Shown here: positions 44,123-51,501 of the stretch, piece by piece | How positions within the stretch are numbered: the stretch's first letter is position 1 | How the letters are laid out: each line of letters starts with the position of its first letter | Assembly (NCBI RefSeq): GCF_000730425.1 | Contig: NZ_CP008896.1 | Location: 2,728,001 to 2,792,000, forward strand | Length of the DNA stretch: 64,000 bases | Source: Pseudomonas fluorescens | Lineage (GTDB): Bacteria > Pseudomonadota > Gammaproteobacteria > Pseudomonadales > Pseudomonadaceae | Direction: 5' to 3' | Notes under the pieces: model-generated | What the model saw: the letters and a program-made list of their open reading frames with translations, nothing else | Databases searched by the model: none | Told to the model about the DNA's origin: nothing | Position numbers and translations under genes: made by a program

Positions 44123-45574
44123 ATGCATCAAATGACTCTGGCCGAGATCGCCCGCGGTCTCGCCGACAAAAAGTTTTCTTCCGAAGAGCTGACCAAGACC
44201 CTGCTGGCGCGTATCGCCGCACTGGATCCGAAGCTCAACAGCTTTATCAGCCTCACCGAGGAGCTGGCCCTGGGCCAGGCCAAGGCCGCCGACGCCCGTC
44301 GCGCCAACGGTGAAAGCGGCGCTCTGCTGGGGGCCCCCATTGGTCACAAGGACCTGTTCTGCACCCTGGGCATCCGCACCAGTTGCGGCTCGAAGATGCT
44401 CGACAACTTCAAGGCGCCCTATGACGCCACGGTCGTCGCCAAGCTGGCCGAAGCCGGGGCCGTGACCCTGGGCAAGACCAACATGGACGAATTCGCCATG
44501 GGCTCGGCCAACGAATCGAGCTACTACGGCGCAGTGAAAAACCCCTGGAACCTGGAGCACGTACCCGGCGGTTCGTCCGGCGGCTCGGCTGCTGCCGTTG
44601 CCGCACGCCTGCTGCCGGCCGCCACGGCTACCGATACTGGCGGCTCGATCCGCCAGCCTGCCGCGTTCACCAACCTCACCGGCCTGAAACCGACCTACGG
44701 TCGTGTTTCCCGCTGGGGCATGATTGCCTACGCCTCCAGCCTCGACCAGGGCGGCCCCCTGGCCCGCACCGCCGAAGACTGCGCAATATTGTTACAAGGC
44801 ATGGCAGGCTTTGATGCAAAGGACTCCACCAGCATCGATGAGCCTGTTCCGGACTACAGCGCCAGCCTCAATACCTCGATCAAAGGCCTGCGTATCGGCG
44901 TGCCGAAAGAGTATTTCAGCGCCGGCCTCGACCCACGTATCGCCGAGCTGGTACACAACAGCGTCAAGGCGCTGGAAAAGCTCGGCGCGGTGATCAAGGA
45001 AATCAGCCTGCCGAACAACCAACACGCAATTCCGGCGTATTACGTGATCGCCCCGGCCGAAGCCTCCTCCAACCTGTCGCGCTTCGATGGCGTGCGCTTT
45101 GGCTACCGCTGTGAAGCCCCCAAAGACCTCACCGACCTGTACAAGCGCTCCCGTGGCGAAGGGTTCGGCGCAGAAGTGCAACGTCGCATCATGGTCGGCG
45201 CCTACGCGCTGTCGGCTGGCTACTACGACGCGTACTACCTCAAGGCGCAAAAAATCCGACGCCTGGTGAAGAACGACTTCATGGCAGCTTTTAATGAAGT
45301 CGACGTGATCATCGGCCCAACCACGCCGAATCCGGCCTGGAAACTCGGTGCCAAGAACGGCGACCCGGTGGCCGCGTATCTGGAAGACCTCTACACCATC
45401 ACCGCCAACCTTGCGGGTTTGCCGGGCTTGTCCATGCCGGCCGGTTTCGTCGATGGCCTGCCGGTGGGCGTGCAGTTGCTGGCCCCGTATTTCCAGGAAG
45501 GCCGCTTGCTCAATGTGGCGCACCAGTATCAGCTGAATACTGACTGGCACACTCGCCCCCCAACCGGCTTCTGA
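44123..45574 (+). CDS. gatA: glutamyl-tRNA(Gln) amidotransferase subunit A
   Basis: 483 residues, amidase-signature enzyme. The Lys ([10 protein letters not shown]), cis-Ser and nucleophile Ser ([26 protein letters not shown]) triad is complete. It releases ammonia from glutamine for transfer to the misacylated tRNA. The gatB ATG follows the stop by 10 bp. Confidence 0.98.
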
Positions 45575-50183: not shown

Positions 50184-50252
50184 AGCGGTGTGTCAGCCAC
50201 CAGGCTCATTGCTTCGCCAACCTGGTTTTTTTGATCGCTTACAGCGGGCACC

Positions 50253-50280
50253 TTGACGTAGGAAATTATTCCTCTATGAT
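50253..50280 (+). promoter_or_regulatory. sigma-70-like promoter of the phospholipase gene
   Basis: TTGACG (50253-50258), 16 bp spacer, TATGAT (50275-50280). Predicted start near 50287, inside the LexA site, 57 bp before the ATG. Confidence 0.65.
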
Positions 50281-50288
50281 CAAAACAG

Positions 50289-50304
50289 CTGTATATACAT
50301 ACAG
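50289..50304 (+). promoter_or_regulatory. LexA (SOS) box
   Basis: CTGTATATACATACAG, one base from the ideal CTGTATATATATACAG and a perfect CTG-N10-CAG. It covers the predicted start of the adjacent promoter, the classical position for LexA repression. Confidence 0.85.
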
Positions 50305-50343
50305 CAATCAAGGAAGATTCTTACGACATAGCAAGGAGCTAAC

Positions 50344-51501
50344 ATGTCTGAACTTAAATCGATCATCACCGCAAACCCCATCCCCTCCCTACGCTTCGAA
50401 GGTGGCGAGCACACCGCTATTGGCGACGACACCCAACTGCGCTTCGTGCAAGGCGAGCCTTCTATTCCGGGCGCTCAAGTCAAGCTTCACCTACCCAACG
50501 GCCTGGCCTTGACCTACGGCCAGATTATCTCCCTGGGCGGCGATTTCTACGGCGTTCCCGGCCAGCCCATCAGCGACGGCGCATCGCCAGCCGAGCGTGT
50601 CCAACGCTTTATCGCTGCCTTCAATTCCCTGGCTACGCTGCCGGCATCGCGGGAAGAAGCGGGAAAAATCCTCGCAGTCATGCAAAAGGAAATCAATGCG
50701 GTCAAGCAAGCAATCAAAGAAGGCAAGCAGGCCCATGAAGCCTATGACGTGCTGGGTGATACGTTGTCCGAAGAGTGGAACCGCATTACCGGTGGGGGTA
50801 GTGTTGTTTCGGCCATGGTTCCACTGGGGCGCTACCTGAAACTGGCAGCCGACAATGCTGATCACTTTGGCGAATGGGCGCTCTCAGCCTATCTGGCCGG
50901 GCATACTGCAGCCCTGCAACAAGCGGTAGTGGCCCATCAAAGCGGCAGCGACCAACAACTGGAACTGGCTTATGCCATGAACAGCTTTGCCGATCACTTT
51001 TTGACCGACCTGTTTTCCGCAGGCCACCTGCGCGTACCGCGCAAGCAACTGGCGGCCGTGGTGACGCCGGGTGAATTGGGGTCGCTGATCAGTCGCTTCA
51101 TGCACGACGAAGACAGCAAGTTCGGGCTCAATGTGCGCAATGCCCTGGGCGACGAATGGCACGCCTATGGCGACAAGCGTTATTTCGATAGCAACGATGC
51201 CGCCAATCGCACCCAGGTCAAACGTGCAGTACAGGCGTCGGCCGATGAGATTTTCGAGGCATACATCAGCGGTATCGTCCCCTCCCCAGCTACGTTCAAG
51301 GCGCCGTTGCATGTGCCGGACCTGAATGCAGCGAACAATCCGGCGAATAACTTCGCGCCGCTGTTCAAAGCCGATGGGGACAAGGTTCTGCGGCGCAAGG
51401 ACGTCAACAACCTGAATGACAAACAGTGGACCAATGATTGGTGGGGATGGAGTACGTATTTGCTGCTCAAGGACTACAAGCCGAACAACCCGCTGCCTTG
51501 A
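50344..51501 (+). CDS. zinc-dependent phospholipase C-like protein, SOS-controlled
   Basis: 385 residues. The spacing of candidate zinc ligands copies PC-phospholipase C (B. cereus D55/H69, H118/D122/H128, H142/E146): Asp173 and His187 are 14 apart, His218-Asp222-His228 match HxxxDx5H, and His273-Asp277 stands where HxxxE would be. The first 80 residues (NGLALTYGQIISLGGDFYGVP) are an extra domain. No signal peptide is visible, unlike secreted PLCs. AAGGAG precedes the ATG. Upstream are a promoter and a LexA box; no operon partner follows. Candidate roles are lipid remodelling or lysis after DNA damage. The family is firm, the substrate is not. Confidence 0.8.
   Translation: MSELKSIITANPIPSLRFEGGEHTAIGDDTQLRFVQGEPSIPGAQVKLHLPNGLALTYGQIISLGGDFYGVPGQPISDGASPAERVQRFIAAFNSLATLPASREEAGKILAVMQKEINAVKQAIKEGKQAHEAYDVLGDTLSEEWNRITGGGSVVSAMVPLGRYLKLAADNADHFGEWALSAYLAGHTAALQQAVVAHQSGSDQQLELAYAMNSFADHFLTDLFSAGHLRVPRKQLAAVVTPGELGSLISRFMHDEDSKFGLNVRNALGDEWHAYGDKRYFDSNDAANRTQVKRAVQASADEIFEAYISGIVPSPATFKAPLHVPDLNAANNPANNFAPLFKADGDKVLRRKDVNNLNDKQWTNDWWGWSTYLLLKDYKPNNPLP

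Follow-up and report, generated by a model that had tools for sequence, protein, structure and literature searches.

Predicted LexA control of a leaderless PlcC-type phospholipase C gene in the Pseudomonas fluorescens group

The plcC-type gene and its promoter

The DNA analysed here (the window, 64,000 bp) spans positions 2728001–2792000 of the one-contig 6.06-Mb genome of a Pseudomonas strain of the fluorescens group. Its forward strand carries a plcC-type gene (50344–51501), the leaderless 385-amino-acid product of which is assigned to the family of PlcC phospholipases C, as judged from the reading frame, relatives, conserved residues, the predicted fold and a published PlcC (PMC2613904). 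Upstream of it, a near-consensus CTGT-N8-ACAG motif, the predicted operator of the SOS repressor LexA, overlaps the promoter, the transcription start of which is predicted.

Direct reading gave a −35 hexamer TTGACG (50253–50258) and a −10 hexamer TATGAT (50275–50280), both on the forward strand. The predicted operator CTGTATATACATACAG (50289–50304, no strand assigned), recognized by its pattern and conservation, begins 8 bp past the −10 hexamer and lies on the predicted transcription start. A first-pass annotation, made from the letters of the DNA, had described TTGACG-N16-TATGAT followed by this box ahead of the ATG, and direct reading bore it out, with 39 bp between the end of the box and the ATG at 50344. 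It had also placed the box one base from the ideal site; CTGTATATACATACAG indeed differs by one base from CTGTATATATATACAG, which we take to be the ideal LexA-box consensus. Among 50 listed sites, out of 54 exact CTGTN8ACAG sites in the genome, the plcC site was one of three that were one base off CTGTATATATATACAG.

The 12-mer TTGACGTAGGAA (50253–50264), which is longer than a −35 element requires, was identical in 93/133 promoters of orthologues; a second regulator may act at this site, binding in the spacer. A long inverted repeat around the box (CGTAGGAA...TTCCTACG) was considered and rejected. Own pairs averaged 6.35 matched bases and cross-paired promoters 6.21 (sd 0.06); own pairs topped all 30 shuffles (largest 6.32) by very little, an excess that kinship could explain.

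Gene product

The gene at 50344–51501 is very probably plcC. Relatives of the same length carry the name phospholipase in their source records, and residues H23, D67, H174, H187, H218, D222, H228, H254, E256 and D277 were invariant in 45/45 aligned relatives. This set resembles metal ligands and includes H-x3-D-x5-H, a spacing that presumably equals that of the ligands in B. cereus phospholipase C. The predicted fold, assessed against the zinc phospholipase C/P1-nuclease type, moderately backs the assignment as a putative phospholipase. The Pfam model PF00882 (Zn_dep_PLPC) had no match in the strain's own genome at E ≤ 0.001, and a Pfam scan of the protein returned only BMC, at E 0.19. The earlier label 'zinc phospholipase C-like' could not be read from the window alone; its support comes from outside, from the PlcC literature, the names of relatives and, with moderate weight, the predicted fold. 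The N-terminus is not hydrophobic and no signal peptide was seen in the sequence.

Some relatives (P0028; P0046, 546 amino acids) had an extra C-terminal stretch of approximately 110 residues; P0028 was without a Pfam match. PF19193, presumably tectonin, was present in some distant relatives.

PlcC of P. fluorescens MFN1032 (accession DQ462712) is a 385-amino-acid phospholipase C without a signal peptide that occurs in the culture supernatant and has shown lecithinase activity (PMC2613904, a 2008 paper). Recovered from supernatants, it was active and apparently uncleaved, and a plcC-overexpressing strain was culturable (PMC2613904). The authors proposed GntR control; they described a gntR gene on the downstream side and, immediately ahead of plcC, a GntR consensus, and stated as an open question how PlcC leaves the cell (PMC2613904). 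The same paper lists for P. fluorescens SBW25 a putative phospholipase C with 92% identity to PlcC (PMC2613904). The window protein has the same 385 residues in length and the same lack of a signal peptide as MFN1032 PlcC and the phospholipase C of Preuss et al. (PMC2613904); its kinship with PlcC was judged by length, relatives' names and gene context. The first-pass annotation was unaware that the enzyme type had already been characterized, that it is leaderless yet extracellular, and that an earlier paper had suggested a GntR site at the promoter of a plcC gene.

Conservation of the box in relatives

When 398 genomes of the genus were searched with the protein, 136 matched, and 133 held a full or nearly full orthologue, counted once per genome. 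Left out of this set were the broken copies of G058 and G086, a 35-residue fragment in G138, a second copy in G095 and a second match in G292 (L269). The motif CTGTN8ACAG was exact upstream of 132/133 orthologues and had a single mismatch in 1/133, so the comparison of upstream regions suggested in the first-pass annotation found the box retained. From the end of the box to the ATG, 36–41 bp were counted in the 132 orthologues measured. All 133 promoters had TTGAC in place, a 16-bp spacer, a −10 element of the form TA-N3-T and 7–9 bp between this element and the box; with this spacing the predicted operator overlaps the predicted transcription start, as had been claimed. Mean conservation across the 133 orthologues was 99.9% for the half-sites (8 bases) and 89.9% for the 8-bp core. 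Outside the box it was 39% over the 20 bases that open the compared stretch on its upstream side, and 58% over 20 bases a little way 3' of the box.

A set of named genomes (the best 80 of 168 relatives) overlaps with the 133, and the counts are not additive. Here, the box was exact in 79/80 loci and had one mismatch in 1/80 (P. extremorientalis, L035), a record identical with the one that has the mismatch among the 133. The nearest named relatives by protein were P. brenneri (95%), P. gessardii (94%) and P. proteolytica (92%).

The diverged second copy in G095 (L212, 63% identity) was without the box. In two distant relatives from a class-level search (L230, L231) and in a homologue on a Rhizobium plasmid (L096), the 300 bases ahead of the first start codon that the frame allows held no box; a further distant relative (L232) ran off its stretch and was uninformative. 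Since it is absent from these copies, the box is, on the upstream regions compared, a feature of the Pseudomonas orthologue rather than of the whole protein family. Broken gene copies in two genomes (L213, L214), with much of the middle gone, had an exact CTGTN8ACAG upstream in both cases, with the core altered in one. Phage and plasmid origins were considered and rejected: tblastn gave no match in 50,697 phage records, and 3/72,556 plasmid records matched, none of them from Pseudomonas (both sets may omit records that lie very close to the window).

In 74/80 named loci the gene lay near genes for an aldehyde dehydrogenase, a dihydrodipicolinate-synthase-type protein (labelled KdgD-like) and a GntR protein; these are the gene types that flank plcC in MFN1032, with the dihydrodipicolinate-synthase-like gene on one side and GntR on the other (PMC2613904). 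In 2/80 the contig ended past the aldehyde dehydrogenase and dihydrodipicolinate-synthase-type genes. The remaining 4/80 loci and the window lacked the neighbouring GntR gene and had a gene for an AEC-type transporter (PF03547) beside the plcC-type gene. The window thus differs from MFN1032 (PMC2613904) in its neighbours, which are this membrane transporter and SspB (PF04386). Box and spacing were alike in both neighbourhoods and are therefore independent of any one of them.

Box frequency and other SOS genes of the genome

The bare pattern alone is weak evidence for an operator: with up to one mismatch, CTGTN8ACAG occurred 9 times in the window, compared with 21 expected from shuffling. Genome-wide, exact sites numbered 54, compared with 25 for the reversed control pattern. 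The only other exact site in the window (44844–44859) lies within gatA and is most likely due to chance.

For 35 of the 54 exact sites, the reading frames close by were inspected, and seven downstream products were scanned with NCBIfam. Boxed genes encoded LexA (TIGR00498, E 8.5e-76, above cut-off), RecN (first 149 residues only, E 8e-67) and a UmuD-like subunit (E 7.5e-36, above cut-off). YebG (E 5.5e-9) and YejK (E 6.4e-9) matched below cut-off, 2/7 scanned products had no NCBIfam match, and no recA site was recognized among the 35 sites inspected. In this one genome, the operator type before lexA, recN and the umuD-like gene is thus the same as that before the plcC-type gene.

LexA control and a proposed mechanism

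SOS control by LexA of the phospholipase C gene, the central claim of the first-pass annotation, has about as much support as sequence by itself can give, with an exact box in 132/133 orthologues, one near-exact box, the overlap with the predicted transcription start, and the likeness to the boxes before lexA, recN and the umuD-like gene. The site rises above chance because it is near CTGTATATATATACAG, the box is kept in orthologues and the promoter spacing is kept in 133/133.

A LexA dimer on a start site blocks transcription until RecA stimulates LexA cleavage. On this model, LexA would bind at 50289–50304, cover the transcription start of the sigma-70 promoter and keep it silent; upon DNA damage, RecA would trigger LexA self-cleavage and the promoter would fire, inducing plcC. 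As it has no signal peptide, PlcC would accumulate in the cytoplasm, and it would act outside the producing cell. Its most likely way out would be the lysis of some of the SOS-induced cells, for instance through the tailocin-like locus of the genome. Once outside, it would cut lipids of the phosphatidylcholine type. PlcC would follow the pattern of a colicin, with SOS timing, no leader and release by lysis, but the gene has no lysis or immunity partner. That the gene belongs to the LexA regulon and that its leaderless product acts outside the cell is, in our assessment, reasonably probable. Lysis as the release route is proposed tentatively. With similar reserve we hold it possible that Pseudomonas deploys an enzyme against lipids in the manner of a colicin, with a damage-induced leaderless phospholipase C delivered by the death of the producer.

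The tailocin-like locus lies at approximately 2.483–2.496 Mb (L242:5177-18052). Scanning of 8 frames gave matches that include an endolysin, tail proteins, baseplate hub and wedge proteins, a head-closure-like protein and a phage-type S24 repressor. Sheath and PrtN models had no match in the genome.

One published observation weighs against a purely damage-driven scheme. DNA damage cannot be the sole control, because haemolysis by MFN1032 occurs in early stationary phase and is stronger at low temperature (PMC2613904).

Alternative explanations

LexA control could be real and the enzyme nevertheless act inside the damaged cell, where it would remodel or break the cell's own inner membrane (with diacylglycerol formation, growth arrest or self-lysis) and appear outside as a by-product. 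The leaderless protein, the SOS operator and the lack of an immunity partner adjoining the gene all agree with such a role, but PlcC was active and apparently uncleaved in MFN1032 supernatants and the plcC-overexpressing strain was culturable (PMC2613904). We consider intracellular action rather unlikely. Another repressor of the S24 type that responds to RecA, either a second LexA or a prophage or tailocin repressor, might be the main protein on the box, and the seven S24-peptidase matches in the genome, including LexA, the UmuD-like protein and the phage-type repressor of the tailocin locus, provide candidates. The box nevertheless matches those before lexA and recN, and its conservation in 133 genomes would speak for a regulator common to all, which makes a different S24 repressor improbable.

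The palindrome might also be the operator of a different regulator, such as the GntR-family protein of the 2008 paper, in which a GntR consensus lies just upstream of MFN1032 plcC and gntR lies downstream (PMC2613904). The GntR consensus T.GT-N0-3-AC.A was, however, absent from window positions 50201–50343 and present in the promoter stretch of only 3/80 named loci (the MFN1032 promoter is not among them), and the box is kept in the window and in the four loci without a neighbouring gntR gene. A likelier GntR target would be the neighbouring dihydrodipicolinate-synthase-type and aldehyde dehydrogenase genes, and we regard GntR as a very improbable owner of the box. Finally, gene and promoter could travel as one cassette, with an unused box kept by common descent; the patchy presence (136/398 genomes) and the occurrence in at least two neighbourhoods are in line with this. 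Common descent alone fits poorly with an upstream edge that has decayed to 39% agreement next to half-sites that are still at 99.9%, and a cassette with an idle box is accordingly most unlikely.

Possible translational control

A small RNA hairpin, TAGC-AAGGA-GCTA (50329–50341, forward strand), is weakly predicted; its loop would hold the GGA of the ribosome-binding site. The sequence CAAGGA overlapped the ribosome-binding site in 131/133 promoters and could be looped out by a complete 4-bp stem in 79/131, by three different pairings (53, 15 and 11 cases); a full stem was impossible in 52/131. At three positions, 329/393 cells were paired, compared with a shuffle mean of 283, and 0/1000 shuffles reached 329, a difference that kinship inflates. 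The single-sequence fold had a z-score of −3.0, largely from the palindromic box. A hairpin with CAAGGA resembles what we take to be an Rsm/CsrA site; this identity is possible and serves as a lead only. GacA reportedly controls phospholipase C in strain CHA0, according to a title from 1994 among the references of PMC2613904. A second gate, acting on translation by Rsm-type control at the ribosome-binding site, may link PlcC to population density.

Comparison with known systems

Colicins and S-type pyocins are SOS-timed, leaderless and exit by lysis. At the sequence level, the plcC-type gene combines an SOS operator with the lack of a signal peptide and so resembles them in timing and leaderless state, and also in lysis exit, which is only proposed for PlcC. 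In contrast to them, it has no adjoining immunity or lysis gene in the window, and its substrate would be lipids. A zinc metallophospholipase C family of Legionella (PlcA, PlcB, PlcC/CegC1) was reportedly described by Aurass et al. in 2013, the title of whose paper makes CegC1 an effector secreted by Dot/Icm. We know of no SOS control in this family, a point on which no search was made. The LexA regulon of P. aeruginosa presumably uses the same operator type. PA0922 is named as a member of that regulon (PMC8944484). PlcA of L. pneumophila and MFN1032 PlcC share 43% identity, and PAO1 gave no product with plcC primers (PMC2613904).

A literature search, in which subscription papers were mostly outside coverage, found neither LexA control of plcC nor a paper in which plcC and LexA occur together as whole words. 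Both the SOS system and this type of enzyme were known before; new would be the combination of SOS control with a leaderless, extracellular phospholipase C. If true, a lipid-cutting enzyme would join the SOS regulon of a large and environmentally common bacterial group, the published guess on the plcC regulator (GntR) would be replaced, and the 2008 question of how leaderless PlcC gets outside would receive a testable answer. Phospholipase output in these species could then shift under DNA-damaging antibiotics or phage attack.

Further boxed genes

A perfect palindrome, CTGTACATATGTACAG (L014:1501-1516), lies 81 bp ahead of a 473-amino-acid frame. By eye its N-terminus is signal-like, and its one domain match, to PPC, is weak; this frame possibly encodes a further SOS-controlled exported protein. 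Exact boxes at L013:1501-1516, L099:601-616 and L102:497-512 stand directly before genes for a radical-SAM protein, a DUF1654 protein and a protein that weakly matches a helix-turn-helix, respectively, which are possible further SOS genes.
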